From contig NJBN01000016.1 in NCBI GenBank assembly GCA_005223185.1, forward strand, positions 1 to 48,248: a stretch of 48,248 nt of DNA, given 5' to 3'. The stretch's first letter is position 1. The number at the start of each line of letters is the position of its first letter. The DNA comes from a candidate division LCP-89 bacterium B3_LCP (GTDB lineage Bacteria; Electryoneota; B3-LCP). Shown here one piece after another: positions 1,973-35,319 of this stretch. The position numbers were made by a program, and so were the translations under genes. The notes beneath the pieces were generated by a model. The model saw nothing but the letters and a program-made list of their open reading frames with translations. It was not told the origin of the DNA and did not search any database.

Positions 1973-4009
1973 CTACTTCACCAGCACCACCTTACCAGTA
2001 GCCTGATATTCACCAGCGGTCAGATTATAGATGTACATACCTGATGGAAGATCTGAAGCATCGAAGGTTACTTCGTGATTACCTGCATCTCGCCAGCCGT
2101 TGACAAGTTCTGTCACCTGCCGACCTGTGATATCGTAGATCGAGAGACTGACTAAGCTGGAGGCTGGAAGCTGATAACTGATAGTAGTGGTCGGATTGAA
2201 GGGATTGGGGTAAGCGCCCAGCAGGCTGATTTCTGCTGGCAAAGCGTCTTCGGTCGTTATGTCCTCTCCCGGGAAAAGTTCGCCTGAACATATCCAGCCG
2301 CCTAGACCTTCCCAGCTATCATCGGTGCCCTCTTTGGTGAAGCAAAAGTTATCATAATCCATGATCACCCAGGGAGGATAACCGACACAAGCCCAATACA
2401 TGTATTCCCCTGCTGGAGCTACTGGTGGAACGGCTTGTGAACGAAGACGGGTAATGCTCTGTAACGGATTCACAATAACCTCTATCGGTCCTAACACAGT
2501 ACACTGCTGACCCGCGGGGAGTTCGACATTACACCAAATATCGAACGTCTGCTCATATTCGGAGATATTTTCTACTGATATATCAAAGGCAAACGAACCG
2601 CCGTTAGCAGGAATTACGATCGGGGGATTGACCGGCGCCAAGGTGACGGTTATAGGCGAGATCTGACAGTATTTTATGGTTGCAAAATCGTAATCAGTTC
2701 CATCGCCCACACTTTCACCCGTCACATAGACATTGAGGTCCGCATCTGTGACTATGGCATTCGGCTTATCCCGCCCAAATACCGGACCGGCGTATCTTAT
2801 ATCCCATTGGAAATTCCCCTCGGTATTGTACTTAACGGTAATGTAATCATATTCATCGACATAATTCATTCCCGTAACGTACACATTCGCTTGCGAGTCC
2901 AGAGTCATGGCACTGCAGTGGCTATCTTCGGCGCCACCCTCGTAAATCCGCTGCCACAACTCAACGCCGTCAGCATCATACTTGATGGTTACAAATTTCA
3001 GAATGTCAGTTGCTCCCGGATTGAAGTCTGCATGACCTGCGACATACACATTCCCATCGAGATCGAGCCCAAGGCCGAATATATAGTCACTTTCATTGGC
3101 AGCGTCATATCGCTTCACCCACTGCAGGACGCCTGCGGAATTGTATTTAATGGTGGTATAGTCCGGATCTGTGTCATTTTCTACACTATAGCCTGCAACA
3201 TAAACATTGGCATCACCATCTACGGCTATATAAAGCCCTTCGTCCGCGTCACCTGCAGGTCCATCGTACACTACTGACCATTGCACAGCACCATCATTAT
3301 CATACTTGACGGTAAGGAAGTCATGATCTGAACCGCTTTCTGTGCAGTATCCGGTTATATACACATTGTCGTCAGAGTCTAAAGCCATATCACTCGGCCA
3401 CTCCTGGCCTGGCCCAGGATTATGATATACCTCCCATAGCAGAACACCATCGTTACTGTATTTAAGCAAGATGTAATAATACTGACTTGCCTCATGCGAC
3501 GTTGTGGCCACAAACACATTCCCGTCGCTATCGAGGGCAATGTCCTCGGCATAGGTATCATATCCAAGGGGACCATCATAGATATGCATCCATTGTATGT
3601 TACCATCGGTGTCATACTTGATCGTGAGTATATCATGTTCAGGGCCGGATGCATAACCATACGTTCCGGTAGCGTATACATTGGCGGAGGCATCGAGAAC
3701 CAGGGCATCGACGCGGTCAGGCCAATTGAAACCACTATTGTGCCTGTCTTCCCATAACAGAACTCCGGCTGGACTGTACTTGATCACAGTAAAATCATAA
3801 CCAGTTCCCACTCCATAGCTGGACCCCCCAACATAAACATTGCCATCTGCATCCACAGCAATTACAGCGGCTTCGTCAGCTCCATTCGCAGGACCATTGT
3901 ATCTCGCTTCCCATTCCTGCATGGGGATAAGATGAGCATAGAGCGGAGCTGCAGCCAGTACGATCACGCATAGCGCGATCAGCAAAGTATTTAGATTCCG
4001 TACATTCAT
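1973..4009 (-). CDS. Secreted SBBP-repeat beta-propeller protein with type IX sorting domain
   Basis: 678 residues. A signal peptide (about residues 1-25, ending PLYA) is followed by eight repeats of roughly 50 residues with cores such as DADGNVYVGG, DSDDNVYITG and DLDGNVYVAG alternating with TIKY/TVKY strands. This is the pattern of SBBP (seven-bladed beta-propeller) families. A beta-sandwich linker (about 450-560) follows, and a C-terminal sorting domain (about 600-678: NPFNPTTTISYQLP, YDITGRQ, SGMYIY, GKVVLVK). The protein should cross the inner membrane by Sec and the outer membrane by the type IX system, with its tail removed on attachment. The start has a good site (AGGAG, seven bases to ATG). 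The upstream leader resembles that of the next gene and contains a nine-codon reading frame. The propeller's ligand is unknown. Confidence 0.88.
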   Translation of the reverse strand: MNVRNLNTLLIALCVIVLAAAPLYAHLIPMQEWEARYNGPANGADEAAVIAVDADGNVYVGGSSYGVGTGYDFTVIKYSPAGVLLWEDRHNSGFNWPDRVDALVLDASANVYATGTYGYASGPEHDILTIKYDTDGNIQWMHIYDGPLGYDTYAEDIALDSDGNVFVATTSHEASQYYYILLKYSNDGVLLWEVYHNPGPGQEWPSDMALDSDDNVYITGYCTESGSDHDFLTVKYDNDGAVQWSVVYDGPAGDADEGLYIAVDGDANVYVAGYSVENDTDPDYTTIKYNSAGVLQWVKRYDAANESDYIFGLGLDLDGNVYVAGHADFNPGATDILKFVTIKYDADGVELWQRIYEGGAEDSHCSAMTLDSQANVYVTGMNYVDEYDYITVKYNTEGNFQWDIRYAGPVFGRDKPNAIVTDADLNVYVTGESVGDGTDYDFATIKYCQISPITVTLAPVNPPIVIPANGGSFAFDISVENISEYEQTFDIWCNVELPAGQQCTVLGPIEVIVNPLQSITRLRSQAVPPVAPAGEYMYWACVGYPPWVIMDYDNFCFTKEGTDDSWEGLGGWICSGELFPGEDITTEDALPAEISLLGAYPNPFNPTTTISYQLPASSLVSLSIYDITGRQVTELVNGWRDAGNHEVTFDASDLPSGMYIYNLTAGEYQATGKVVLVK

Positions 4010-4458: not shown

Positions 4459-6699
4459 TTATTTCATCAGGATCATCTTTCCGCTGTCTGTGAAATCACC
4501 GGCTTGCAAGTGGTAGATGTACATACCTGATGAGAGTTCTGATGCATCGAAAGTAACTTCATGATTACCTGCGTCCCGCCAGCCGTTGACTAGATTCGCT
4601 AGCTGTCGGCCTGAGATGTCGTAGATTGAGAGACTGACCAAACTGGTAGCTGGTAGCTGGTAACTAATAGTAGTTGTTGGATTGAAGGGATTGGGATAGG
4701 CTTCATTCAAAACAAAGTTTGAGGGAATATCTTCATCCTTGTTCACATTCAAGCCCTCAAATCCCTTACCTGCGCAGAACCAATATGATGGCGATCCTGG
4801 AAAGTTACCTTCAACACTGCCTTCTTTTTCGAAGAAGAAGTAGTAGTAATCATCCACGATCCAGGGATAGGTGCCAACATAGGCCAGATAAGTGTATGTC
4901 CCCGCCGGAGCGAAATCCGGGACTTGCTGCAATCGGTACCCGTAGGCGGTGAAACCGGGGGCTATAAGAAGACCGGTCGCACTGAGTACTTCGAACGATC
5001 CCCATCCTGGAAGCTCAATCTCTGACCAGAAGTCGAAAGACTGCCAGTCAAGAGTCAGGTTGGTTACCTCTATCGTGAAACCAAATTCACCGCCCGTTTC
5101 GGGAATCACAATGGGTAGATAATCGGGAATCAACGTCAGCTTCACCAGCATATCCTGGTGAAAGTAGAAAGCACCCATGTCCGCTATTGTACCATCAGGA
5201 TCAAACGGAGAGCTTGGATCTCCAGCATCGATGCAGGGTGAAATCCGCTGCAAGTTCAGATCGCCGTTTCCCGGATCTATGAATTGGGGATCGAGGCTGA
5301 TGGAGCCGATCCCAGGCGTTACTCCTGAATAATCACCGATAGCCGAATTCCAGACGTCATTATAAGAGACGTTCGGTGAATCGAAGTCCGAGACGTAAAT
5401 GCCATATTCGCCGCTCGTACTGACGATGTTGTTGGTAAGGGACGTGTTGAGATCTCCAGATCCGGTTTTGCTGATGGAGATGCCATTACCTCCTGAGTTG
5501 TATACGGTATTGTTGACAATCGATAACTCATGCGCCGTCGTCGCACTGACCTGAGCGGCGACACTGATGCCGTTCAGGAGACAGTTGGTGACCTCATTAT
5601 AGTGAACATAACATGATATTTCACTGAAGACACCCGAAATGTCAATTCCCGCATTTACAAATTTGTTATTAATGACATTCGCGTCATAGTACGACATTGC
5701 ACTAATCGATCCTGACAGAATTCCGTGGATGGTGTTTCCGTTTACCTCTAAACGACGTGCAGTCGTGAGGCCGATACCGCTGTAGAGTGTACTTCCAGTT
5801 ATCTCCACATCCACCCAATCGATGGTGATTTGGCCGTGGACAGTGCTATTGATAATATCCAGGTGAGTGTATTCGCCGGGATTGGTATTGATAACGGAGA
5901 TAGCAGAATACGCTGTGCTATTATTAAACTCGACACTCCCATCTTCGGTTGTAGATATAGCCCCTTGAATAGTGCAGCCATTCAAACTAATTATGCAGTC
6001 CTCGCCGAAACACACCACACTACCATTCACCTGGCTATCATAGAGCTGCAATGTACCTGCGCTCATGCCGGTGCAGTAACTAAGGTTCTGCTGCAGGGTT
6101 GAATTGGCGATGCTTCCTCCAGCAGCATTATACATGAACTCCAGATTGCCTTCGAAAGTACATCCTTCAATATCAAGTGGATTCGAACCTACCGATGACA
6201 GACTGACGGTGACCAGACAGCGGGTCAGATCTAGACCATTGGGTTCTTCACATACAGGGATCGACAACCGGCAATCGGTGAACAGAAGACCATTCGTCGT
6301 CCAGAGGGAATTTCCATATTCAAGCGTGCTGAATATTAATTCCATCGAACCGCTTCCTTCTACGTGTATGCCGTCCCAACTGCCCGGGGGTGAAGTTGAA
6401 GTGAAGAATACAGTATCACCGACGCTGAATGGATCGGTGCCATCCGCTAACAGAGAGCCGTAGACGGAAAGTCCAGTATTCTGTTCAAAACGCACCTCGA
6501 CACCGTATGTTATATTCAGAGTCTCGGCGCTGGGTATCGTGATATCTCCCTGGATGATGTAGGGTGAACCTGCCTCAGTCCAATTTCCGTATACGTCTCC
6601 GCCGGAGATGTAGGTATCTGCAGATGTAATGCTGGCTAAAACCAAGATGGCTGTTGGAATTAGCAAAGTCTGCAAGGGGACAAATGCTTTCCTCTTCAT
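4459..6699 (-). CDS. Secreted parallel beta-helix protein with type IX sorting domain
   Basis: 746 residues. The signal peptide (about 1-27) ends near TSA. Residues 30-510 form a right-handed beta-helix of many degenerate coils (for example SIVNNTVYNSGGNGISISK), of the type in pectate-lyase-like or NosD-like surface proteins. A beta-sandwich (about 520-640) follows, and the sorting domain (about 670-746: NPFNPTTTISYQLP, YDISGRQ, NGWRDAGNHEVTFDAS, GKMILMK). No catalytic cluster of a polysaccharide lyase is evident, so binding or adhesion is as likely as catalysis. The ribosome site AGGAGG is well placed. It is a paralog of the partial gene at the left edge, and its sorting domain is nearly identical in DNA to that of the SBBP gene. 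Confidence 0.88.
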   Translation of the reverse strand: MKRKAFVPLQTLLIPTAILVLASITSADTYISGGDVYGNWTEAGSPYIIQGDITIPSAETLNITYGVEVRFEQNTGLSVYGSLLADGTDPFSVGDTVFFTSTSPPGSWDGIHVEGSGSMELIFSTLEYGNSLWTTNGLLFTDCRLSIPVCEEPNGLDLTRCLVTVSLSSVGSNPLDIEGCTFEGNLEFMYNAAGGSIANSTLQQNLSYCTGMSAGTLQLYDSQVNGSVVCFGEDCIISLNGCTIQGAISTTEDGSVEFNNSTAYSAISVINTNPGEYTHLDIINSTVHGQITIDWVDVEITGSTLYSGIGLTTARRLEVNGNTIHGILSGSISAMSYYDANVINNKFVNAGIDISGVFSEISCYVHYNEVTNCLLNGISVAAQVSATTAHELSIVNNTVYNSGGNGISISKTGSGDLNTSLTNNIVSTSGEYGIYVSDFDSPNVSYNDVWNSAIGDYSGVTPGIGSISLDPQFIDPGNGDLNLQRISPCIDAGDPSSPFDPDGTIADMGAFYFHQDMLVKLTLIPDYLPIVIPETGGEFGFTIEVTNLTLDWQSFDFWSEIELPGWGSFEVLSATGLLIAPGFTAYGYRLQQVPDFAPAGTYTYLAYVGTYPWIVDDYYYFFFEKEGSVEGNFPGSPSYWFCAGKGFEGLNVNKDEDIPSNFVLNEAYPNPFNPTTTISYQLPATSLVSLSIYDISGRQLANLVNGWRDAGNHEVTFDASELSSGMYIYHLQAGDFTDSGKMILMK
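5249..5375. repeat. 127-bp perfect direct repeat, copy 2
   Basis: Identical to bases 1-127; it encodes the last beta-helix coils before the linker of the 746-residue protein. Confidence 0.95.
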
Positions 6700-6879: not shown

Positions 6880-6908
6880 AAAATAAAAACCCCGGCGTTT
6901 GTGCCGGG
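6880..6908 (-). terminator. Intrinsic terminator of the CHAT/sigma/anti-sigma unit
   Basis: Arms CCCGGC and GCCGGG with loop GTTTGT, followed in the minus direction by a T-rich tract (TTTTTATTTT). It lies about 55 bases after the anti-sigma stop codon and is the only terminator seen for the three-gene unit. Confidence 0.8.
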
Positions 6909-6962: not shown

Positions 6963-7817
6963 CTACTTCTCCTTTTCAGCCACAGGTCGTACCTTTTCTA
7001 ATAGCGATTCTGCAATTTCAGAATAATCTCTCTTCTGTATAGCAAGTCCTTCCAACAAAGGCATGGCAGGGTCGGCGTTTCCATCTAACAGGAATGCTTG
7101 AGCCAGATACCACTCTGCTCCACTCTTGAGCGTATATTCAGTTAACGATACCGCCTTAGTCAGCGCTTTGACAGCCGGTTTTGCTTGACGATCAAGGTAG
7201 TAGCTGATACCCAGATATAACCACCAGGGACCTTCATCGGGAGATGCTGACACGGCATTTTCTAAATAATCAATAGCGCCTTTGAAATTACCCTTAAGAT
7301 ATTCATCCATTCCTTTCCTGAATGTCAACTGTGCATCGGTTCCAATATCACTCCTCACGTGCATTTGTTTGAACGGCGCCTTCTCAAAGCTCAAATGAGC
7401 AAAATAGGGGTTTTCCGGCTGAGTTCCCGGGCGCATGATTAAGAATACCACCAAAGCAATCGTAACTATTGTAGCAGGTACGAACACTTTCGCTCTTCTG
7501 AAATCTTCAATGCTTGAAATTATTCTTTCCCAAATAGTCGCAGTTAAGGCTTTTCTTTTTCGCTCTTCTCGAACCAATTTTAATAACTTTCGTTTCTGTG
7601 GTTTATATTCGATACTTTCTCTTTTAAGCTCTTCACGAATTTCATCTTTATGCTCCTGGAAAGCGGAGATAACAGGCATCTTTTCTTCTATCTCCCCAAG
7701 ACAGAAATCGCACTTCAGGAGATGTTCCTCAAATCGGTCACGCTCATCGTCGCTCAACTGTCCCAACTCGTAGAGCGCGATAAGACGTCCCAATTCTGCA
7801 TCGATACATTGCTTCAT
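6963..7817 (-). CDS. Membrane-anchored zinc-finger anti-sigma factor with TPR domain
   Basis: 284 residues. Residues 1-45 hold a ZAS-type zinc finger (H32-x3-C36-x2-C39, with C4 as possible fourth ligand), as in anti-sigma factors that clamp ECF sigma factors. A basic, helical cytoplasmic stretch (45-108) leads to one membrane helix (about 111-128) without a signal peptide, so the finger is inside and the C-terminus outside. Residues about 145-275 look like three TPR repeats (YLKGNFKGAIDYLENAVSASPDEG and following). It lies 12 bases after the sigma gene, the usual order for a sigma/anti-sigma pair. Known family behaviour is to hold the sigma factor at the membrane until a signal releases it. 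A TPR sensor domain outside the membrane is less usual and could contact the exported TPR-CHAT protein encoded first in the unit; that contact is inference. Confidence 0.82.
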   Translation of the reverse strand: MKQCIDAELGRLIALYELGQLSDDERDRFEEHLLKCDFCLGEIEEKMPVISAFQEHKDEIREELKRESIEYKPQKRKLLKLVREERKRKALTATIWERIISSIEDFRRAKVFVPATIVTIALVVFLIMRPGTQPENPYFAHLSFEKAPFKQMHVRSDIGTDAQLTFRKGMDEYLKGNFKGAIDYLENAVSASPDEGPWWLYLGISYYLDRQAKPAVKALTKAVSLTEYTLKSGAEWYLAQAFLLDGNADPAMPLLEGLAIQKRDYSEIAESLLEKVRPVAEKEK

Positions 7818-7829
7818 TATCTCACCAAG

Positions 7830-8444
7830 TTATTGTATTTGATCACTCACCAGGTCCATCAATTTTTTACGACAATCGAAGACCCTCTTGTCGAATGCGT
7901 TTCTTTGCAATTCCGGCTCTAATTTCCGGTAGAGCTCCCAAACTTCCTGTACTCTCCTCCCATCCAATATAGCCAGAAAGAAAGTTTGGCAAAAAACTGG
8001 CAGCCTTTTTATTGCCGTTCGAATGTAATTAGATAAATCCTCAGATTCAATCTCAGCTAAGAAACTGCTTTTCTCCTTTATTGTGGTCACAATTCGTTCT
8101 CTAAAAGAAGCACGGTGATGGATTTCCGCCTGACTATCCGTCTGAATAGTTACATTTTTTCTCCTGCGCATCCGTTGATAGAAATTTCCAATTTTATTTC
8201 GAAGTATCTGTAAAACATACGTATCAGGATCCGACTCAATGAGATTTATCTTTTCAGAGAAGATCACCATCGTATCCTGGAGTATGTCTTCTATGTCTTC
8301 AGAAGACTGCCCTCTTAAACGGTATTTGATGATGGGGTGCAATCTTACCGCCAATTTTCGAAACAAATCATCCTTTGCTGACTGATCTCCACGACGAACT
8401 TTCTTCAGGAGATTGTTCCAATTTGTCTCTTCGATAACAGCCAA
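7830..8444 (-). CDS. ECF-type RNA polymerase sigma factor
   Basis: 204 residues. Region 2 covers about residues 25-95 (DIEDILQDTMVIF core-binding helix, then QILRNKIGNFYQRMRRRK of the -10 recognition face). Region 4 covers about 135-200 (IKRLPVFCQTFFLAILDGR, then a helix-turn-helix ending FDCRKKLMDL). The recognition helix segment is a few residues longer than in typical ECF factors. The start codon is TTG at 8444, chosen because GGAGA lies six bases upstream and no ATG is available. It sits between the TPR-CHAT gene (52 bases upstream) and the anti-sigma gene (12 bases downstream). It should bind core polymerase and direct it to a small regulon when released. No -35/-10 pair could be assigned to it. 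Confidence 0.85.
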   Translation of the reverse strand: MAVIEETNWNNLLKKVRRGDQSAKDDLFRKLAVRLHPIIKYRLRGQSSEDIEDILQDTMVIFSEKINLIESDPDTYVLQILRNKIGNFYQRMRRRKNVTIQTDSQAEIHHRASFRERIVTTIKEKSSFLAEIESEDLSNYIRTAIKRLPVFCQTFFLAILDGRRVQEVWELYRKLEPELQRNAFDKRVFDCRKKLMDLVSDQIQ

Positions 8445-8496
8445 TACTTCTCCAACTAATATATCAGTTTACGCATTCGGGCTGTTTATATATTAT

Positions 8497-11052
8497 TTAT
8501 TCTGAACTTCCGATCAGTATAAACGATGCCCAGGAATGAGTGTCCTGGTACACCTTCATCGTTTCAAGCTGGGCTTTCCTGAGAGATTCCGCCTTGCCAT
8601 ATATTCTTAAGTTTTGATAGAAATTCTTCATCAAAAAAGCAGTGGATTCATCGTCCACCATCCAGAGTGAAGAAATAATAGTGGGAGTTCCCGCATAAAT
8701 GAAGGCGCGCGTAAGCCCAACCAATTCATCCCCGTTGGTTAAATGACCCAATCCGGTCTGGCAACCGGAGAGAACCACTAAATACGCATTCAAGTCCATC
8801 GTGAAGATTTCGTGAACGTCCAATTCACCATCCTGATTATCGTCAGGAGCTAGTAATAAACCAGAAAACAGTGGATAAGCGGAGTTCAGCTCTGCATGAC
8901 AGGCTAAATGCAAGATATCGAAATTTGGTGCCAGCTCCCTGAATCTTGTCTCTGTTGCATCGGCGCCAGTTAAAACTCGAGTTTTACTGGAATATCTGCT
9001 AATGTCTTTTACCTCTTTCTCCGAAAAAGGAATTGGTTTATAATCCTTATGATCCGCTTCTGGATTACCAAAAGCTAATATATTTTCTCCTTTGTCCCGT
9101 TCTTTTGATTTTAAATACCTGATAACTGACGCTGAAGGCAGGTAACTAATTTCATATTGATCGAGGAGATATTTTCCCTTACCATCCTGCAAAGCTCCGA
9201 AAGGAAGATAGTGCAAAATGCCGTGAGGGATGATGATCAATTTTTCTGTTTTAACCGTTTCCGCAACCGGTGCAATCAGAATGTCGCATAAATCTCTGGA
9301 AAGATACTCTCCCTTCCCGAAGTACACGATTGCGTCACGAAAGCCTTTAACCATATTAATAAGGCTATCGCTGTTAATAGAAACCTGAAAAAGTTCTGCT
9401 TCGTTTGGGGTTATTCGCCAGATCAGAGTTTTCTCTTTCGTCAGGAAATATTCCAGAATTGTGCTTTCGTGATCTAATAGTTGTTGAACTTCCGAAAGGG
9501 TCTCAGAGTTCACCGTAACCAGAGCCACCAGTTCCGGCTCGTGCAACTTTTTCTCTTCAATCAATGCGCTTATTGAGCGGAGGTTTTGTTTTATTCTCTT
9601 GACAAGTTCAGCAATTATTTTCGCATCATCTGCTGCGGCGATAAGTTGTTTTTCAATTTCTTTCTTCTGATTTTGTAACTCCCGTTCACGCTGTAGGAAT
9701 TCTTTGTCCTTACCCTTACCAAATATAACGCCACCGCTTGTCAGCAAGTCCAAAAAAGAACGGGCTTGAGCGCGTTCAACGTATGCATAAGCTTCTTCCT
9801 CCCTGTGAAGCCGGAGTAACGTCAGAACCATTACTTCATAAGTTTCTGTAACTCCTGAAGCGTAGCAGCTTTTTTGCCCCTCAAACTCCAGTTTCTCACG
9901 AATCCGCTCCATAGATGCAATCGCCTCACCATAGTTCACTACAGCTAAAGAATCTAACTCTTGTACAGCATAATAGTCACCTAAGGTGGAATAGCACGCT
10001 TGAATGTCCTCTTCTTTTCCCAGTTCTGAGGCAATTGTCATCGCCTTCTCATTATATTCCAACGCTTCTGGATATTTCTTCTGGGCAAGATAGAGTTTTC
10101 CGATATCATTAAAGATCAAGCCTTCACTCCGCCGGTTTCCCACTTCCCTGGCTACCTCTAAACTTTGCAGGTAGTATTCCATTGCCTCAGGGTAATCGGA
10201 AAGCTTGGTGTAGATTGTTCCGATATTTTTCAAAGCTATACTCTCAATGATCGGCTCTTTTAATTCTCGCTTCACGGCTAAACTTTGCTGGAAATAGTGC
10301 AATGCCTTCTGGTAATCGGCGAGTGTTTTATAGATCATTCCAATGCAGTTTAGGACATAACTTTCACCGTTTCTGTTTTTGGCAAACTCAAATATCTCCA
10401 AACTTCTTCTTGAATAATCCAATGCGTTGGGAAAATCGTAAAGATTTGAATAAACTAATCCTATACTATATAACGTCCAGGCTTCACCGTTTATGTCATC
10501 TATTTCCCTCCGCAATATCAGACTTCTACGATAATGTTCCAGGGATTTGGGATAATTGGAAAGTGAATGATAAGCTATTCCGAGGCTGAACAGGATGTAA
10601 CATTCATAGTGTCGGTCTCCGATCTGTTTAGCTAATTCCAACCCCTGTTGGTAATAGTCAAATGCCCTCGGGAAAAGGGAAAAATTTCTATAGAGATCTC
10701 CGAGGTGGTATAGAACTTTAACTTCCTTTTTTCTGTCACCAATTTCAACGTATATAGCAAGTACCTTTTCTAAATAAAATAGTGCTTCCTGGAAATTATT
10801 CCGATGAACATAATGGATTCCTAACCTCCTGGATATCTCCGTTTCACCTTCTCTGTCACCAATCAGTTTGTATAGTTTCAAAGCTGATTTATATAATTCG
10901 AACCTCTCATCAGGTGGCCATAATCTCTGAATAAATTTCCCCGCAGCGAACAAACTATCCGCCTCAGACTTGATTTTAAGAGTATCTAACTGCTGGCTAT
11001 ACGCAGCAACCGCGAATAACAAGTGAGATACAATTAAAAGCTTAAATCTCAT
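8497..11052 (-). CDS. Exported TPR-CHAT caspase-like protease
   Basis: 851 residues. A signal peptide (MRFKLLIVSHLLFAVAAYS) predicts export. Residues about 35-390 form eight or more kinesin-light-chain-like TPR repeats (patterns such as ALEYNEKAMTIASELG). A coiled-coil-prone helix (about 440-490) follows, and a C-terminal CHAT domain (about 520-851) with the caspase-clan pair H719 (ILHLACHAELN) and C764 (VVLSGCQTGLG), both intact. CHAT proteins are cysteine proteases of the caspase/separase clan, and TPR-CHAT members are activated by partners to cut specific proteins. It is the first gene of the unit with the sigma and anti-sigma genes, which suggests it acts in their signalling, for example by cutting the periplasmic part of the anti-sigma factor. 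The leader carries a short form of the element found before two type IX cargo genes. Confidence 0.88.
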   Translation of the reverse strand: MRFKLLIVSHLLFAVAAYSQQLDTLKIKSEADSLFAAGKFIQRLWPPDERFELYKSALKLYKLIGDREGETEISRRLGIHYVHRNNFQEALFYLEKVLAIYVEIGDRKKEVKVLYHLGDLYRNFSLFPRAFDYYQQGLELAKQIGDRHYECYILFSLGIAYHSLSNYPKSLEHYRRSLILRREIDDINGEAWTLYSIGLVYSNLYDFPNALDYSRRSLEIFEFAKNRNGESYVLNCIGMIYKTLADYQKALHYFQQSLAVKRELKEPIIESIALKNIGTIYTKLSDYPEAMEYYLQSLEVAREVGNRRSEGLIFNDIGKLYLAQKKYPEALEYNEKAMTIASELGKEEDIQACYSTLGDYYAVQELDSLAVVNYGEAIASMERIREKLEFEGQKSCYASGVTETYEVMVLTLLRLHREEEAYAYVERAQARSFLDLLTSGGVIFGKGKDKEFLQRERELQNQKKEIEKQLIAAADDAKIIAELVKRIKQNLRSISALIEEKKLHEPELVALVTVNSETLSEVQQLLDHESTILEYFLTKEKTLIWRITPNEAELFQVSINSDSLINMVKGFRDAIVYFGKGEYLSRDLCDILIAPVAETVKTEKLIIIPHGILHYLPFGALQDGKGKYLLDQYEISYLPSASVIRYLKSKERDKGENILAFGNPEADHKDYKPIPFSEKEVKDISRYSSKTRVLTGADATETRFRELAPNFDILHLACHAELNSAYPLFSGLLLAPDDNQDGELDVHEIFTMDLNAYLVVLSGCQTGLGHLTNGDELVGLTRAFIYAGTPTIISSLWMVDDESTAFLMKNFYQNLRIYGKAESLRKAQLETMKVYQDTHSWASFILIGSSE

Positions 11053-11119: not shown

Positions 11120-11261
11120 ATTTGCGCCAGTGATAGTTTTCAAGAAATACAGAGGTATCTTGCGAAATATAGTAACTCATGGGGCAATTGTCAAGGTATA
11201 ATACACAATTTTGATAATTTTTCAGGGGTTTTAAAATTTATTTTTCAGAACCGATTTTTCA

Positions 11262-11377: not shown

Positions 11378-14300
11378 CTATTTCATCAGCACCATCTTAC
11401 CGGTAGCATTAAACTCACCAGCTTCAAGGTGATATAGGTATATGCCTGATGCTAATTCAGAAGCATTGAAAATCGTTTCATGCACCCCCGCATCCCGCCA
11501 GCCGTTGACCAGTTTTGCGACTTCTCGTCCTGAAATGTCATAGACCGTAAGATTAACCAGACTTGACACTGGTAACTTATAATTGAGAACTGTAGCAGGA
11601 TTGAATGGATTAGGGTAGTTCTGTCCCAGGCTGAATTCTTCGGGAATTGTTCCATCAACTGCAGTGGTATTGATGAATTCAGAGAAGGGATCTGGGAAGC
11701 TGCAGGTTGGTAAATTAGCTTCGAAGTCATAATCTAAATCCACAGCGCCTTCCTTTATCCAGGAAAAGGCATCCGTATGCCATATTTCGTATTCAGGATG
11801 CCAGCCTGAGTAAATTCGAAATTCATAGTTACCGCCCGGCCAACCAACAGGAACCGGGTACCAGGCATCCGGGCGGTTGATCTGCCAGCCGGGCTGGTAA
11901 TTGGTGATTTCGCGCAAAATAAGAGTGGTTGTATCCGTGTTTTCGTAAATTTTGTCAATCCAGATGTCATAATCCAGAGGTACCGATCCCTGATTTTCAC
12001 CCCATATGCCGTAATACAAATTCCCGCCACCAGTTGGAATAGGTGATCCTGACACGTAATCAACTTCAACTACCATCTGGGGGACTCCCGCAGTGTCTGT
12101 AGTGAAGAGAATCGCCATGCCTTCATCGATGGCGCTGGCATTGGTATGATAGGCTTGGTTGTATAGGTATTGAATGCCGTCATCTTCCGATTGGTTTTCG
12201 ATCCCCACCGTGCAGGAACTGCTGTTGTCCAATATTCCATACTGGAAGAGTATCATGCCATCGCCGGTTGAAGTCTGATAGATTAAAGGATCGTACAACA
12301 CCACTTCAAAAGTCAGGTTAGCCCAGGAGGGCCAGTAATCCCGCACTTCATTGAACTCGATTATATATAATCCCTGCCCGGAATCGTGGTAGTAACTCAC
12401 CGTTCCTTCCTGCTGTGGCGATAGATCTTCCCAGAAGGGAGCGATCATGTTGGGGGGTCCGTCTTCATCGGGAATGGGTGAATTGGAATGGTTGGTGTTT
12501 TCAGTGTACCCAAAGGCAATCCAGCCGTTAGAACATACTGAAATTTCACTGAACGTCTGTCCGTAATAGACGAACGTAAATGGAAGAGTCAGATGCATCG
12601 TTTCATCATCATTGGTATAATTCAGCAGACTGCCGGATCCACCCTGGTTGGGATCAATTTCGATCCAGTTGTAGGTGGGCCCGTAGGGTTCATCGTTGAT
12701 GTCATAAGCGCTATATCCGTAATTATCAGGTCCACTGGGCAGGTAGGTAATGTCGCCTATATCCATTGAGAAGTCCAAATAATCGATCCAGCCGCCGGCT
12801 GCCTGGTACGTTAAGGTGAAATCAGCCTGGAAATAGGGAGGCGCTGATCCTGAGGCGTTAACGCCGAAATCCTGAGTTCCCTGTCCACCGGGTTGTATGG
12901 TGCCGTACGATTGAGTAGGCGTGGGGATAGTGATATAGGGGCTGGTGCAGGAGAGGGTAGTGTTCAGGTTTCCCGCCTGGTACGATCCTTCATTGCTCAA
13001 TGTGATTTCGAAATCTGTATTCTCGCCGGGTTCTAATACTCCGTTGCCGTTACCACCGAAAGAATCATCAACTACGAGTTCATCAAGGTGGATTTCCGGT
13101 GCGTGCGCTATCATCTGCACTATGCTGATCCATTCCCGGGATCCGGAGGTCATAACCACAGTGACGTCAAAGAGGTGTTCATCCGGAACGTCAAGGGCTA
13201 TGTCAGCCGCGAAAGCATTCACCACTTCTACCGTATCTCCGGTGTTGATAGTACCGTAGTTTTCCTGCCAGTCGCTGAAGGATATATACGGATCTGATTC
13301 CTGCAGAACCACATCAACCGATGGAGCTGCTGCACCTCCAGCATTTATCACCGGGATGGTTAGAAGGATGGATTCTCCGTATTCAATCTGACCGTTATTG
13401 TTCCCTTGTGAATCATCGATAGTGACTCCGTCTGCAGTGAGATATGGTTCAACTGCGCCGTTGGGTACTGCCAAATCTGCAACTGCCCCCAACAACGCTT
13501 CCAGTACGTGAATGGCATAAGGCGTGTCAAGGTGTTCCATCAAGTCATTGACAGAATGATAGAAGGGATTCAGGTCCGGTCCCCAAGCTTCGTCTTCCAT
13601 AGCCAGAACCGCCGGAATTCCCGCATCCCAGAAGGAGGCGTGATCTGCATAAACCATACTCGGATCCAGGATTGTTACCGGTTCCAAAAAGCCTGTCACA
13701 AAAGCAGTGATCGCCTCGTTGATCTTATTGGCGATGGCAACAGAATTGGGGTCGTTGTTAGAATATATCACTATATCCGGCGGCCAGGGATCCGATCCCG
13801 GCCAGCCTATCATGTCAGCATCGACGACGCCTAAGTAGTTCTCATTCCCCCCGGGCAGGTTGCTGGTGTACGCCTGGCTTCCTAACAGACCCTGTTCGTT
13901 GCCAGCGAAGACAGCGAAGCGAATTGTTTTATGAAAGCTGAAACCGGAAGAGAGAACACGCGCACATTCCAGTACAGCAGCAGTACCGGATCCGTCATCA
14001 TCGGCGCCGGGAGCTTCGTCTTCCGGAAATATGGGAAGACCTGCAGTGGCGTCATGGTGTGCGATGATGTAATATATATCATCCGGTTCTGCGGTTCCAG
14101 TCAGTTCTGCAGTAACGTTATATCTCCACAAACCACCGACCTGAAAGCTGTCCAGCCAGGCGGTCAAACCCATAGCCTGAAATTGTCCCAGGATGTACAA
14201 CGCGGCATCATCACATTCCGGGTTGTAGGTGTTGCGGGTGATGAAATCTTCCAAAGGCTGCAGGTAATCTTCATAGGAAACAGATGACACTTCGTCTAAG

Positions 14301-14779
14301 ATGACGCCCACAAACGGATTCATGTCATCAAGGTTATCAGGGGGATTAAGTTGTTCTCTAATCGGATAACTATCTGCAGAGATGGCTCGGAATGGGATAT
14401 TGGCAGAGCAGAGATCAGATAAAACTGCATCACTGCCGTTTATGAGTATAAAATCATCAGTTTCAAATATGATAGACGAATCAGAAACTTCAAGACCCAC
14501 ATCGCGAAGACTTCGCCTGTCAACTTGATAGACGTTGCTGAAGTCCGATATCCCGTCTGAGAGCAGGGCGATTTCATCGCATTTCCGGATATTAGTCGAT
14601 TCCGGCATCATGCCGATCAAATAATCACCACAACGAGCGTGTAGCTTGAAATCCAATGATTCAAGTTCTTCCAGATCATTCGCCAGATGACCGGATATGA
14701 CAACCGGTATGTATCCCCCGGAGAGCGCCGTGTTACAGATCAGCGCCAGTAAAATTATTAACCCACTGCATATGCGCAT
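11378..14779 (-). CDS. Secreted M28-family metallopeptidase with type IX sorting domain
   Basis: 1133 residues. Signal peptide about 1-20. Residues about 160-440 carry the M28 zinc aminopeptidase pattern: H242 (AHHDAT), D260-D262 (GADDDGSG), E295 (GNEQGLLGS), D322 (DADMIGW) and H408 (FYHSVNDL). In most M28 enzymes two adjacent glutamates occupy the GEE position, the first being the general base; here it is N294, so activity is uncertain. After this come two CARDB-like beta-sandwiches (about 450-680), a larger beta-rich region with PFTFVYYGQTFSEISVCSNGW (about 730-900), and the sorting domain (about 1055-1133, NPFNPATVLNYKLP to GKMVLMK). It should act at the cell surface or outside the cell in peptide breakdown. 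A modest AGAGG site precedes the start. Confidence 0.85.
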   Translation of the reverse strand: MRICSGLIILLALICNTALSGGYIPVVISGHLANDLEELESLDFKLHARCGDYLIGMMPESTNIRKCDEIALLSDGISDFSNVYQVDRRSLRDVGLEVSDSSIIFETDDFILINGSDAVLSDLCSANIPFRAISADSYPIREQLNPPDNLDDMNPFVGVILDEVSSVSYEDYLQPLEDFITRNTYNPECDDAALYILGQFQAMGLTAWLDSFQVGGLWRYNVTAELTGTAEPDDIYYIIAHHDATAGLPIFPEDEAPGADDDGSGTAAVLECARVLSSGFSFHKTIRFAVFAGNEQGLLGSQAYTSNLPGGNENYLGVVDADMIGWPGSDPWPPDIVIYSNNDPNSVAIANKINEAITAFVTGFLEPVTILDPSMVYADHASFWDAGIPAVLAMEDEAWGPDLNPFYHSVNDLMEHLDTPYAIHVLEALLGAVADLAVPNGAVEPYLTADGVTIDDSQGNNNGQIEYGESILLTIPVINAGGAAAPSVDVVLQESDPYISFSDWQENYGTINTGDTVEVVNAFAADIALDVPDEHLFDVTVVMTSGSREWISIVQMIAHAPEIHLDELVVDDSFGGNGNGVLEPGENTDFEITLSNEGSYQAGNLNTTLSCTSPYITIPTPTQSYGTIQPGGQGTQDFGVNASGSAPPYFQADFTLTYQAAGGWIDYLDFSMDIGDITYLPSGPDNYGYSAYDINDEPYGPTYNWIEIDPNQGGSGSLLNYTNDDETMHLTLPFTFVYYGQTFSEISVCSNGWIAFGYTENTNHSNSPIPDEDGPPNMIAPFWEDLSPQQEGTVSYYHDSGQGLYIIEFNEVRDYWPSWANLTFEVVLYDPLIYQTSTGDGMILFQYGILDNSSSCTVGIENQSEDDGIQYLYNQAYHTNASAIDEGMAILFTTDTAGVPQMVVEVDYVSGSPIPTGGGNLYYGIWGENQGSVPLDYDIWIDKIYENTDTTTLILREITNYQPGWQINRPDAWYPVPVGWPGGNYEFRIYSGWHPEYEIWHTDAFSWIKEGAVDLDYDFEANLPTCSFPDPFSEFINTTAVDGTIPEEFSLGQNYPNPFNPATVLNYKLPVSSLVNLTVYDISGREVAKLVNGWRDAGVHETIFNASELASGIYLYHLEAGEFNATGKMVLMK

Positions 14780-28341: not shown

Positions 28342-28524
28342 GTAGAATTGATACCGAGTTTGAAAGAAACTTACTCATTTGGCTCTCAAAAAGCGAGGAA
28401 TTTAAAAAATCGTGGCTTGCCCGGATACTCACTGATAATAAGCTGGCTGAGCTTTATGGCAATTACATCTGTAACCATCCAAAAGAGCTGAAATGCCGCA
28501 CCGAGCTTAGCAAAATTTATCTGA

Positions 28525-28720
28525 AACAGAAGCGCTATAAGGAGGCTGAAAAAGTCCTGTTAGAATGCCTCCAACTTAAGGCTACTGACTTGAACTCCCG
28601 CACCGAATTAGGTCGTGTCTATCTTGAACAGAAGCGCTATAAGGAGGCTGAAAAAGTCCTGTTAGAATGCCTCCAACTTAAGGCTACTGACTTGAACTCC
28701 CGCACCGAATTAGGTCGTGT
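28525..28720 (+). repeat. 102-bp tandem repeat encoding one TPR unit
   Basis: Bases 28525-28618 recur exactly at 28627-28720, a period of 102 bases or 34 codons, one TPR repeat. Perfect identity over 94 bases points to very recent duplication. Repeat number could vary between strains. Confidence 0.95.
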
Positions 28721-29048
28721 GTTTCAGAGAATGGGAAGGTACAAAGACGCTGAGGATGTGCTTCTAAATCTTTTGGCGATAGATAAGAGAAATTATTTTG
28801 CCATGGCTGAACTCATTTCAGTTTACGATAAGATGCAGGATCCTGACAAGTGCTTGCAGAAATTCAATGAATTTTTAGCTAATGTAAAAATATCAAAAGG
28901 CCGCGAACACCAGGCAATGTTCAACAATATATTCAAATTATGTAAGAGATACAGTTATCCTGAAAAAGCGAAGGAATATTTTGAGAAATATAAAGAGATC
29001 CTGGATGAACGGAATAAAGAGCTCTACCAATCACTTTTTGGTGAGTAA
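28590..29048 (+). CDS. TPR sensor part of the STAND protein (downstream of frameshift)
   Basis: This frame is open from the shift point near 28288 to 29048, about 253 codons; the ATG-less start at 28590 is only the first conventional start codon, so this is unlikely to be an independent gene. It encodes TPR repeats of 34 residues (RTELGRVYLEQKRYKEAEKV), two of them nearly identical in DNA, then a helical tail. One inserted base at the A run would fuse it to the preceding frame into a protein of about 765 residues. Either the gene is broken, a programmed -1 shift makes the fusion, or the assembly lacks a base. Confidence 0.7.
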   Translation: MNSRTELGRVYLEQKRYKEAEKVLLECLQLKATDLNSRTELGRVFQRMGRYKDAEDVLLNLLAIDKRNYFAMAELISVYDKMQDPDKCLQKFNEFLANVKISKGREHQAMFNNIFKLCKRYSYPEKAKEYFEKYKEILDERNKELYQSLFGE

Positions 29049-31446: not shown

Positions 31447-34400
31447 ATGATGAACCCACTCAAAAAAACAGAACTTATGGAGCTATCCATCCGTTTTACC
31501 TCGGACGAGAAGAAAGAAGATTCCCCAATTGAGGTTTCCTTCTTCCAACCGCAAAATGGTACCTATTCCAAATCCGAAATCTTCGATCCGCCCTTAGATG
31601 ATGAACACTTAGCTGAGTTGCGTTGGTATTTGGAGGAATTCTCAAATTGGTTCACACTAACTGACTATGAACGTGCTGAAAGACTAAAGGCCCAATTAGA
31701 GGACTGGGGACGCGACCTACTTAGAAGCGTTACTAAGGGACATGAAGCAATCCGTATCTGGCAGCAGTTTGTGGACGATAAGGAAAAAAACAAACTTCTA
31801 ACCATCGATGCTACAGATCCACGTGTACTGCGCCTGCCTTGGGAGCTTCTGGCCGACGAACAGGGCCACATTTTTACGGATGGCGTCAGTATTAGGAGGC
31901 GTCTGCAAAAGGTAGCCAGAACCGTTTTAAAACCCTTAGATCTGCCGGTTAGAGTGTTGATCGTCGTTTCGCGTCCCAATGAAAAAGACGTTGGCTTTTT
32001 CGATCCGCGCGCTGATTCAAAGCCGTTGTTGGATGCGGTGGATACGCTTGGAGATATGGCTCAGGTTGAGTTTTTATATCCTCCCACACTGCGAGCCTTA
32101 ACGGACCGTCTGCGTGATACCCATGCGCCCCGCGTGCACGTCGTTCACTTTGATGGGCACGGCGTTTACAACGTAGGTAAGGGTTTAGGGTATCTATTAT
32201 TCGAGGATGATGAGCACAAAAAAGATCTTATCGATGCTTCCCAGTTGGGAACTCTGTTGACCAATTGTGGAGTGCCTTTGATGGTACTCAGCGCCTGCCA
32301 GAGTGCCAAACAAGAGGAGGCTAATCCCTATGCTAGCGTCGCCGCGCGCTTGATTAGAGCCGGTGTGGGCAGTGTTCTGGCTATGAACTATTCTGTACTC
32401 GTAACGGCTGCTACAAAATTTGTTGAGGCGTTTTACGGTAGCCTCGTGAAGGGTTTATCGGTTGGACAGTCTGTAGATGAAGGGAGATATGCTCTACACT
32501 CCGATGAGAGGCGTTACACCATAACTCGTCACACTGAAGATGGCGATTTGGTTGAAGAGACGGTCAAACTGCGCGACTGGCATCTGCCCGCACTATACCA
32601 GCAAGCAACCGACCCGGTCGTATTTAAATCGCGCAAGGGCGCCAAGCGCAGCGAGCCGAAACCTAAACCTTTGGCGTTAACCGACCATAGAGTTGCGGGA
32701 GGGTTGCCTAAGGAACCGTTGCACGGCTTCCACGGGCGAGCACAGGAATTACATAAAATACAGCGCGCCTTAGCCGAACGTAATGTGGTGGTGCTGCACG
32801 GTTTCGGAGGAATCGGCAAGACGGCTCTGGCTGCGGAAGCTGGTCGTTGGTTTTACCGCACCGGACGTTTCCCAGGCGGTGCAGCTTTCGTTTCTTTTGA
32901 ACACGGCGGATCGCTGCAGCAGCTATGTTCATGGGTGGGACAAGCCGTCAGCAACGATCCCAACTTCGCAATTGGAGAGGGTGATCCCGTAGAGCGAGTT
33001 GCTGATGTGCTTAAAGAAAACCCCGCCTTGATCATTCTTGACAACTTCGAATCAGTGCTGGGTAAGGATCCCATGATGCCACCCGATGAATTAGAAGAGA
33101 TACTGGATGCGGTGTGGAAATGGGCGGAAACTGATACCAGCGAGGCGCGTGATAAAAGCAGTGTGATTACGCCTCCACGGACACGAATTCTGATTACCAC
33201 CCGCGATACTAACTTTAATGACAGCCGCTTCAGTCCTTCTAAAGAATGCGCGCACATTGAACTTGGTGGGCTGATTCAGAGTGAGGCACTGAACCTGGCC
33301 GCGGCTGTGCTTAATTCGAAAAGCATTGACCGTGCCGAAATTGACCTGCAAGAACTGATCTATCTTATGGACCTCCTGGGTGGACACCCGCTGTCTCTCT
33401 ATCTCACATTGCCGCATCTGCATGACTATTCCCCCGCTGAGTTGACCGCACAGTTTGAGGAGCTGCTGCCCGATTTTATCGAAGGCGAAGCCCGGGATCG
33501 CAACGAAAGCCTGACCCTGTCTCTCGAGTTCTCCTTAAACCGTATGGGTGAAGAAACCCGCGCGGCACTGCCCAACCTGGCTGTCTTCCAGGGCGCTGCC
33601 TTTGAGGAGGAAATACTGCAAATTACGCAGATTGACCCGGAACTGTGGAAAACCGCTCGTGCAGAGATGGAACAGGCGTCGCTTGTTTCTGTGGAGTCCC
33701 TGCCAGGTATTAATCCTCCTTTCCTGCGTTTTCACCCGACGCTAATACCATATCTGTCTTCACGCCTGCCGAGCGAACACCGATCCGAACTTGAGGAGAG
33801 GTACTGGAAGCGATATTACGCTCTATCCAATTATCTTTACCAAACAGACACCCAGAATCCTCACATGGCTCGTACCATGGCTTGGCAGGAGATGCCCAAC
33901 CTTCTCTGCGCCTTGGATTTAGCCGTCGCGGCACGTGATGATGAAGCATCTGTTAACTTTGCCACTTGCATAGAGTTTTTTCTTAATGCTTTCGGACGCT
34001 GGCGCGAGAGGGACAGGATGATGGAGAGGGTGGCAACTACTTTTAATACTAAGGAGGCAGACATACTGACCCAGGCGGAATTCATGCTTCTGAGCCAGCA
34101 GGGTGAAACCTTGTGGCAGCAGGGCCGGGCATTAGAAGCGGAAAAGATATTTAGAAATCTGCTAAAGCGCTTGGAGACCAACACCGCCTATGATAGCGCC
34201 TATGACCATGCAAGAACGCTTTGGAGTCTGGGTCGTTGTTTTACCAGTCAGGGTAAACCTGGGGAGGCTACTGATTGGCATAAAAGAGCACTGCAGGAGT
34301 TTAAGCTTCTTAGTGAATCGAATGAAGATGTTAAGAATGCGCTCGGTACAATATACTGCGATTTGGGCAACAATCTAACTATCATGGGAAAGTATGATGA

Positions 34401-35319
34401 GGCGCAGAAAGCTTACGAAAGTGGTTTGGATATCTCAAAAGAGGTTGACGATATGCGTGCGGTCGGCGTTACCTTAGGTCAAATGGGTTCTCTGGCGCTA
34501 AATCGTGGTAACCTGGCTGAAGCAGTAAAACAACTCACTGAAGCGCTGCAGACGTTCCGTTCGCTGGGTGAACCGAAGTCGGAAGCCGCTGTCTGGCATC
34601 AGTTGGGGATGGTGGCCGGCAAGGCTGAAAATTGGGAGGAAGCGGAACGATGCTACCGGGAAAGTTTGAAACTTGAAGAGAAATTAAATAACCCTGAAGG
34701 TATAGCTATAACTTGCAACCAATTAGCTAATGTGGCCCAGAGTGCCGGACGATTCAATGATGCCGAACGCTGGTTTTTGCGAGCTTTAGACGGATTTGAG
34801 AAAACTGAGCAGTTCAATAATATCTCACGTGTCTTATCCAATCTAGCTAATCTTTGTCTGTCACTGAGCCGCCTGGATGAGGCTGAGGATTACGCCATGC
34901 GGGCTCTGGAGATAGATGAGCATATAGACGATCCTTCTACTGAAATATGGAAAAATTATTCAATAATAGCAGAAATTACTGAGAAACGCGGTGAAACGCA
35001 GGAAGCTGCTAAATGGAGGCGCAAAGAGAAGGAGAGCTACGCCGCGTATGCGGGATCTGCGCATGAGATAGAGCAATTTCAGCCTCTCATCAATGCCGTA
35101 GTCCAGGCAGTAAAGGGCGATGAGAAGGTACGTGCCTTCGTGGAGAGCGAATATCCTAAGATGCAAGCAGGTGATCCAGAATGGCAACTAAGCGCTGAGG
35201 CCATACGGCGCATTATCGCCGGCGAGCGGGGTGTAGAGGTTTTAACGGAGGGAATGGGTAGAAAGCAAGCCCTCATAATCAGTACTATTTTGGCACTGTT
35301 GCAAGAGAGGCAGGAGTAG
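31447..35319 (+). CDS. CHAT protease fused to NB-ARC STAND ATPase and TPR sensor
   Basis: 1290 residues, no signal peptide. N-terminal CHAT domain (about 90-385) with H238 (VHFDGHGVYN) and C284 (MVLSACQSAKQ), both intact. Central NB-ARC-type ATPase (about 425-760): Walker A GFGGIGKTALA with K458, Walker B LIILDNFE with D532, RILITTRD sensor and GGHPLSL motif (GxP). A winged-helix region follows. C-terminal TPR array (about 900-1190) of eight or so repeats, and a helical tail. This is the design of a bacterial NLR-like protein: the repeats sense a trigger, the ATPase assembles, and the protease is switched on. Related proteins are linked to phage defence or regulated cell death, but the trigger and target here are unknown. 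It is a single-gene unit with its own 177-base leader. Confidence 0.9.
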   Translation: MMNPLKKTELMELSIRFTSDEKKEDSPIEVSFFQPQNGTYSKSEIFDPPLDDEHLAELRWYLEEFSNWFTLTDYERAERLKAQLEDWGRDLLRSVTKGHEAIRIWQQFVDDKEKNKLLTIDATDPRVLRLPWELLADEQGHIFTDGVSIRRRLQKVARTVLKPLDLPVRVLIVVSRPNEKDVGFFDPRADSKPLLDAVDTLGDMAQVEFLYPPTLRALTDRLRDTHAPRVHVVHFDGHGVYNVGKGLGYLLFEDDEHKKDLIDASQLGTLLTNCGVPLMVLSACQSAKQEEANPYASVAARLIRAGVGSVLAMNYSVLVTAATKFVEAFYGSLVKGLSVGQSVDEGRYALHSDERRYTITRHTEDGDLVEETVKLRDWHLPALYQQATDPVVFKSRKGAKRSEPKPKPLALTDHRVAGGLPKEPLHGFHGRAQELHKIQRALAERNVVVLHGFGGIGKTALAAEAGRWFYRTGRFPGGAAFVSFEHGGSLQQLCSWVGQAVSNDPNFAIGEGDPVERVADVLKENPALIILDNFESVLGKDPMMPPDELEEILDAVWKWAETDTSEARDKSSVITPPRTRILITTRDTNFNDSRFSPSKECAHIELGGLIQSEALNLAAAVLNSKSIDRAEIDLQELIYLMDLLGGHPLSLYLTLPHLHDYSPAELTAQFEELLPDFIEGEARDRNESLTLSLEFSLNRMGEETRAALPNLAVFQGAAFEEEILQITQIDPELWKTARAEMEQASLVSVESLPGINPPFLRFHPTLIPYLSSRLPSEHRSELEERYWKRYYALSNYLYQTDTQNPHMARTMAWQEMPNLLCALDLAVAARDDEASVNFATCIEFFLNAFGRWRERDRMMERVATTFNTKEADILTQAEFMLLSQQGETLWQQGRALEAEKIFRNLLKRLETNTAYDSAYDHARTLWSLGRCFTSQGKPGEATDWHKRALQEFKLLSESNEDVKNALGTIYCDLGNNLTIMGKYDEAQKAYESGLDISKEVDDMRAVGVTLGQMGSLALNRGNLAEAVKQLTEALQTFRSLGEPKSEAAVWHQLGMVAGKAENWEEAERCYRESLKLEEKLNNPEGIAITCNQLANVAQSAGRFNDAERWFLRALDGFEKTEQFNNISRVLSNLANLCLSLSRLDEAEDYAMRALEIDEHIDDPSTEIWKNYSIIAEITEKRGETQEAAKWRRKEKESYAAYAGSAHEIEQFQPLINAVVQAVKGDEKVRAFVESEYPKMQAGDPEWQLSAEAIRRIIAGERGVEVLTEGMGRKQALIISTILALLQERQE

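Follow-up and report, generated by a model that had tools for sequence, protein, structure and literature searches.

Predicted exported TPR-CHAT proteases as candidate site-1 proteases of transmembrane anti-sigma factors with an invariant juxtamembrane arginine

In Craspase, the TPR-CHAT protease Csx29, the sigma factor inhibitor Csx30 and an extracytoplasmic function (ECF) sigma factor are encoded together, and the protease has been proposed to relieve the inhibition (PMC10028731); the cleavage sites of Csx29 are not conserved (L|D, A|S and M|K; PMC11106740). In regulated intramembrane proteolysis (RIP) of the RseA type, a single-pass anti-sigma factor receives an extracytoplasmic site-1 cut and is then processed by a site-2 protease; the site-1 proteases covered by a review of RIP include DegS, PrsW, signal peptidases and Prc, and the word caspase does not appear in it (PMC10202637). 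In the CalpL-CalpT-CalpS system, a protease cuts the anti-sigma factor and frees an ECF sigma factor (PMC11417357). The ECF54 group has CHAT, subtilase or carboxypeptidase neighbours and no anti-sigma factor, and proteolysis of the sigma factor itself has been proposed (PMC8999054). In addition, metacaspase operons with sigma70 genes have been listed for Myxococcus, Haliangium, Sorangium, Fibrobacter and others (PMC3501461). Here we describe a three-gene unit of the candidate division LCP-89 bacterium B3_LCP, found in a stretch of 48,248 nucleotides (contig NJBN01000016.1; the whole analysed stretch is called the window below), which encodes a TPR-CHAT protease with a predicted signal peptide, an ECF sigma factor and a transmembrane ZAS anti-sigma factor. 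On balance, we favour the reading that the exported CHAT protein, or a caspase in related units, acts as the site-1 protease that would cut the anti-sigma factor after a conserved arginine and free the sigma factor through intramembrane proteolysis. No description of an exported CHAT protein with a transmembrane anti-sigma factor was found in the open-access literature; the ECF reclassification may tabulate such synteny.

The proteins of the unit and their main sites are the following; alignment rows refer to the CHAT proteins of a second family, introduced below, plus that of the window.

8497-11052, minus strand: TPR-CHAT protease, 851 residues (PF12770, 3.9e-72, at residues 585-849; TPRs at residues 75-380)
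10993-11052, minus strand: predicted Sec-like signal peptide MRFKLLIVSHLLFAVAAYSQ, residues 1-20, with a hydrophobic segment at residues 3-17
8896-8898, minus strand: codon CAT of the catalytic His719 (H in 31 of 31 aligned rows)
8761-8763, minus strand: codon TGC of the catalytic Cys764 (C in 31 of 31 aligned rows)
8650-8652, minus strand: Asp801, candidate S1 aspartate for a P1 arginine (D in 31 of 31 aligned rows)
7830-8444, minus strand: ECF sigma factor, 204 residues, TTG start (Sigma70_r2 of Pfam, 1.1e-5)
6963-7817, minus strand: ZAS-TM-TPR anti-sigma factor, 284 residues (zf-HC2, PF13490, 6.4e-5, above cut-off, plus TPR)
7701-7724, minus strand: ZAS motif H32-x3-C36-x2-C39, invariant columns in an alignment of 15 proteins
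7437-7487, minus strand: single transmembrane helix, residues 111-127, from hydropathy
7350-7400, minus strand: conserved juxtamembrane segment AHLSFEKAPFKQMHVRS with R155-S156 at its end; the invariance of R155 makes this a candidate for site-1 cleavage
6969-7337, minus strand: extracytoplasmic TPR domain, residues 161-283 (predicted local distance difference test, pLDDT, mostly above 90 in AlphaFold2, AF2)

The original prediction had described three adjoining minus-strand genes for a CHAT protein, an ECF sigma factor and a ZAS anti-sigma factor, and the open reading frames, strand, order and Pfam matches agree with it. It had also reported a signal peptide and intact H719 and C764, which can be read in the sequence as a hydrophobic N-terminus and the two codons, as well as one membrane helix and an outer TPR domain in the anti-sigma factor, which are recovered here with the H32-C36-C39 motif, the helix at 111-127 and the Pfam TPR match. 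Signal peptide and membrane topology were assigned from hydropathy and charge. The profile match and the His-Cys dyad place the protease among the CHAT peptidases (PF12770, clan CD), and the HxxxCxxC motif, the helix and the adjoining ECF sigma gene place its partner among the ZAS (zf-HC2) transmembrane anti-sigma factors. An outward C-terminus is supported by a 703-residue anti-sigma factor (L036/L087, 1877-3988) with a sorting tail of the type IX secretion system (T9SS) at the end of its outer part.

Like Craspase, the window unit combines in one locus a TPR-CHAT protease, an inhibitor of a sigma factor and the ECF sigma factor itself. However, Craspase operates in the cytoplasm and responds to guide and target RNA, whereas the window CHAT protein is predicted to be exported; the window inhibitor is a transmembrane ZAS protein, whereas Csx30 is a different protein and not a transmembrane ZAS one; and an invariant arginine is the predicted site here, in contrast to the non-conserved sites of Csx29. 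Few solved CHAT structures were matched, those of Csx29 among them, but the Csx29 profile NF041237 scored 67 bits where 300 is the cut-off, in the CHAT region only. Neither is the unit part of a recognizable type III-E locus: CRISPR-like arrays or repeats are absent from the 48 kb window, as the original prediction had stated, and Cas7-11 was not searched for genome-wide. That prediction had drawn a parallel with Csx29 and Csx30, of which the logic stands and the membership does not, given the score far below the cut-off and the differences in inhibitor, export and site. The window sigma factor reached 33 bits (cut-off 100) with the CASP-sigma profile NF041236, in a match spanning both sigma regions, and the same profile matches 9 of 12 relatives. 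A distant kinship with CASP-sigma is possible, and we treat it as a lead and not as a test; the control sigma set (A6) contains CHAT-linked sigma factors and is not a clean control. Among solved structures, none closely resembles the window sigma factor.

The RseA-DegS-RseP pathway resembles the proposed one in the place of action, the single-pass membrane anti-sigma factor and the site-1/site-2 scheme, and differs in that a clan CD enzyme, CHAT or C14, is proposed here as the site-1 protease. The window genome encodes a site-2 (M50) protease (G000:C6:147794-148795; PF02163, 7.3e-62), which is weak support for membership in RIP because M50 proteases are near universal. CalpL-CalpT-CalpS shares the logic of an anti-sigma cut that frees an ECF sigma factor, but its protease is of the Lon type, is activated by cyclic tetra-adenylate (cA4) and belongs to type III CRISPR. 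With ECF54 the unit has in common an ECF sigma factor with a CHAT neighbour and a proposed control by proteolysis; the presence of an anti-sigma factor sets it outside that group. The metacaspase operons likewise join a caspase homologue and a sigma factor, although the section on them notes no anti-sigma factor, export or cleavage site and CHAT proteins are not included. Both ECF54 and these operons had already pointed the same way.

Conservation of the neighbourhood in relatives, the check attached to the original prediction, was run and found to hold: in a paralogous locus, at 16 of 21 loci of the same phylum, at 34 or more of 47 loci in another phylum, and with a caspase in the CHAT slot. 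The paralogous unit lies on contig C4 of the window genome (L009), with the CHAT, sigma and ZAS-TM-TPR genes in unchanged order; its identity to the window unit is 39% for the sigma factor, 39% for the anti-sigma factor and 53% for the C-terminal part of the CHAT protein. A sigma factor search of 39 genomes of the phylum, with reading of the surroundings, gave the 21 loci (family 1), two of which (G039 and G040) are from related genomes found by a separate search. Where CHAT adjoins sigma, the order is CHAT-sigma-anti-sigma at 13 loci, the anti-sigma gene of one more lies beyond the contig end, and CHAT is located after the anti-sigma gene in G014 and G027. The remaining five loci comprise one caspase, two loci cut by contig ends (G036 and G039) and two with no protease in view (G033:C92:16579 and G031:C366). 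Since CHAT is present in only 17 of the 39 genomes, chance adjacency is negligible. A search of genome contigs with the sigma alignment returned no more than 7 loci, almost all of them in this phylum. The mirror-tree correlations were modest (sigma and anti-sigma, 0.61; anti-sigma and CHAT, 0.47; sigma and CHAT, 0.33), which suggests an exchange of CHAT lineages among units. In three family members, the gene after the anti-sigma gene is DUF3800-like (L009 10766-11560, L090 7803-8543 and L091 5696-5938).

The caspase was found in genome G029 (97% complete), where a genome-wide search gave no CHAT match. A 1164-residue WD40-Peptidase_C14 protein is encoded there immediately 5' of the sigma/anti-sigma pair, exactly in the CHAT position. 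It carries a membrane anchor at the N-terminus, WD40 repeats, and at the C-terminus a Peptidase_C14 domain (3.9e-14) with an intact His-Cys dyad (AGHG and DACHSG motifs). CHAT and C14 are members of one peptidase clan, and the two proteins otherwise have no common domain (TPR versus WD40). What the slot beside the sigma gene preserves is, by its sequence, a predicted exported caspase-fold protease.

About 130 genomes of another phylum, reached via genome G039, provided a second family (family 2), in which the coordinates of ZAS and CHAT matches were compared and a CHAT gene within 5.5 kb was taken as a pairing. Such a gene accompanies at least 34 of the 47 ZAS proteins shorter than 300 residues (24 codirectional downstream, 8 convergent and 2 upstream), versus none of the 51 of 700 residues or more among the matches listed (Fisher p 5.6e-16). 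Reading 11 of the 13 remaining short-ZAS loci added one CHAT gene (L248) and showed that others are cut at contig ends. The association is not merely one inherited block, because three orientations occur. Hydrophobic N-terminal segments are found in all family-2 CHAT proteins except one truncated frame, and in nearly all complete sigma-linked CHAT proteins. Pfam gives no TPR match for the ectodomains of the family-2 anti-sigma factors, which to the eye seem rich in beta structure. Some units carry CHAT genes in tandem: three exported ones behind one sigma/anti-sigma pair in L234 (3029-14010) and two in L233 (2380-9805). A separate class of large ZAS proteins (about 760-800 residues; L180, L183, L186, L188 and L190) has a TolB-like N-terminal part, probably a TPR ectodomain, and adjoining ECF sigma factors, with CHAT nearby in none of the 51 cases listed.

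In Aureibacter tunicatorum (Bacteroidota), two loci on plasmids hold a divergent version of the unit, in the order ECF sigma factor, transmembrane anti-sigma factor, CHAT. The protein in the anti-sigma position has a membrane helix, a TPR-like outer part and no ZAS motif, and the CHAT protein has a C-terminal membrane helix. The tblastn search of plasmids with the window sigma or anti-sigma factor gave no matches, and no annotated sigma gene stands beside CHAT in the sampled plasmids of Caballeronia, Nostoc, Emticicia, Flammeovirga, Granulicella and Azospirillum. Given these CHAT plasmids without a sigma neighbour, CHAT has several uses, of which the pairing with sigma is one. In two unrelated genomes, exported TPR-CHAT proteins are encoded beside membrane proteins that read as CHASE2-like from their sequence (L092 500-8463 and L135 7167-9941), which are perhaps another receptor partner of a periplasmic CHAT.

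The second line of evidence concerns the anti-sigma factor. R155 (codon AGG, 7355-7353) is one of 12 invariant positions in the alignment of 15 proteins; none of the other 11 lies between the ZAS cysteines and the TPR domain, as R155 does. A juxtamembrane arginine is present in 22 of 22 family-1 anti-sigma factors, both Aureibacter proteins included, where it is followed by G (8), S (5), A (3), T (2), D (2), E (1) or N (1). It is likewise present in 36 of 36 family-2 proteins, followed by S (23), A (7), T (3), G (2) or N (1), with Leu or Phe four residues ahead in all 36; there it lies 13-29 residues from the membrane and is the sole ectodomain column at 36/36. The positions were taken by eye behind the predicted helix in family 1 and from one alignment in family 2, and since some arginine is common by chance in short windows, the weight lies on invariance in the alignments and not on presence. 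The same pair of Arg and a small residue precedes differing ectodomains, TPR ones and non-TPR ones that are probably beta-rich. The AF2 model of the window anti-sigma factor is confident for the TPR domain and residues 141-150, and pLDDT falls below 50 at residues 153-156. This arginine, which never varies and lies close to the membrane in what seems to be a flexible loop, looks like a candidate site-1 cleavage site.

On the protease side, the catalytic His and Cys are intact in the family-1 CHAT proteins, with the exception of one copy in G033. Pfam Peptidase_C50 (separase) weakly matches residues 746-801 of the window CHAT protein (E 0.022), D801 being the last of them. In separase a conserved aspartate binds the P1 arginine (Asp2151, Asp2070 and Asp1080 in three species; PMC10317155), and separase, gingipain R and MALT1 are Arg-specific members of clan CD (PMC4626109). 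D801 is kept in every CHAT protein aligned, the broken G024 copy excepted, and the aligned Csx29 chains carry Ser or Pro at its position. The residue would fit an Arg specificity of window-type CHAT proteins, lost in Csx29. The AF2 model of the full CHAT protein (5 alignment rows) gave a long TPR superhelix and low confidence for the catalytic part; its use as a fold-search query was dropped because the catalytic domain was poor at 5 rows.

In the mechanism that we propose, the ZAS domain would hold the ECF sigma factor in the cytoplasm, while the anti-sigma factor would span the membrane once and display the invariant-Arg segment outside, ahead of its TPR domain. A signal would be read by the TPR array of the CHAT protein, or shared between the TPR domains of both proteins. 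The activated exported CHAT would then use its Cys-His site to cut after R155, and the stub would pass to the site-2 (M50) protease and to cytoplasmic proteolysis, leaving the sigma factor free; in related units, an exported WD40-caspase would take over the role of CHAT, the signal being read by its WD40 repeats. We infer in this way the periplasmic residence of CHAT, the R155 cleavage, the TPR sensing, the release of the sigma factor and the genes under control. The original prediction had already supposed that a periplasmic CHAT acts on the anti-sigma factor; that idea has gained a conserved neighbourhood and, in the invariant arginine, a concrete site, while cleavage, interaction and sigma release keep their conditional character. 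We find the interpretation plausible, with more support than it had at the outset.

The genes are transcribed in the order CHAT, sigma, anti-sigma, all on the minus strand and with gaps of 52 and 12 bp, between these elements:

11166-11194, minus strand: sigma70-like promoter TTGACA-17-TATATT, upstream of CHAT, 11 of 12 consensus matches
6891-6908, minus strand: terminator-like stem downstream of the trio
11285-11268: terminator-like stem on the promoter side of the trio

Since a near-consensus promoter and terminator-like stems bound the trio, it is probably a single transcription unit; across the whole scan, the totals of promoter- and terminator-like sites were not above those of shuffled sequence. 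The promoter being of the housekeeping type, basal expression would not depend on the unit's own sigma factor. The flanking genes on the same strand (4459-6699, 1973-4009 and 11378-14779) encode secreted proteins with T9SS sorting tails, from which we guess that the regulon may concern the cell surface.

Several observations weigh against the proposed site-1 role. The sigma-adjacent CHAT of G033 lacks the catalytic His, and both the sigma and CHAT frames are broken in G024. Asp801 is general to CHAT proteins, and would permit but not prove an Arg specificity. The AF2 model of the anti-sigma factor was built on eight alignment rows, so its loop confidence is weak evidence, and the arginine of G003 lies within its membrane segment, at an end that is ill defined. 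Furthermore, the arginine is kept in three anti-sigma factors with no visible protease (G033:C92:16579, G031:C366 and G036, the last at a contig edge), where it could mean folding, docking or a protease acting in trans. These last cases, together with the confidently modelled segment 141-150 beside the TPR domain and the near-membrane arginine often seen in long ZAS proteins of the other class (ENRV or ENRL, 4 of 5 seen), would suit a structural or docking residue, with the cut placed elsewhere. We regard this as quite improbable, since one Arg-small pair stands ahead of both TPR and non-TPR, probably beta-rich, ectodomains and the loop is of low confidence in the model.

It is also conceivable that CHAT is a sensor or scaffold whose TPRs bind the anti-sigma ectodomain and alter its state without cutting, or mask the site of another protease. 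TPRs do occur on both proteins, sigma/anti-sigma pairs without CHAT exist, and the G033 copy has no catalytic His; but His and Cys are kept in all other intact copies, including the 31 rows of the family-2 alignment, and CHAT has been swapped for an active-looking caspase of the same clan with WD40 and not TPR, so that the common part is the protease. We consider this explanation unlikely. We give similarly little credit to CHAT as an output, that is, a protease of the sigma regulon or merely co-expressed, directed at other envelope proteins or invaders. The secreted T9SS-tail proteins encoded on both flanks, the tandem CHATs of L233 and L234 and the many CHAT proteins without a sigma factor speak in its favour. 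However, CHAT comes first after a housekeeping-type promoter in the window, CHAT is upstream or convergent in other units, and the conserved arginine demands some protease or another explanation.

With more reserve, and leaning slightly to doubt, we extend the site-1 reading to a broader one, in which exported CHAT and caspase proteins form a widespread, undescribed class of dedicated site-1 proteases acting at an invariant juxtamembrane arginine, and Craspase may be a cytoplasmic offshoot of an older envelope pairing of CHAT and ECF sigma factors. To our knowledge, the substrate of most bacterial CHAT and caspase homologues is not known. Dozens of loci in several phyla now point to a likely CHAT substrate and a candidate cleavage residue, which makes the proposal directly testable. 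If true, it would place a clan CD class among the site-1 proteases that act on anti-sigma factors, give the protease-sigma circuits of type III CRISPR an ancestral setting, and reveal a widespread, so far undescribed route from outside signals to genes.

Other CHAT proteins were observed as well. Giant exported ones of 2700-2835 residues are conserved in the family (L010 9387-17810, L096, G012:C33, G013:C71 and G011:C235); that of the window genome has beta-propeller-like and TPR parts, a FecR-like neighbour and no sigma factor. The window itself encodes another CHAT protein at 31447-35319 (plus strand, 1290 residues), with an N-terminal CHAT domain (6e-23) that matches PADLOC SAVED_CHAT, an NB-ARC/STAND NTPase and TPRs; it resembles a cytoplasmic protein of the STAND type with a role in defence or signalling. 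Finally, a tandem duplication of 102 nucleotides, 97% identical, is located at 28518-28721 of the window.

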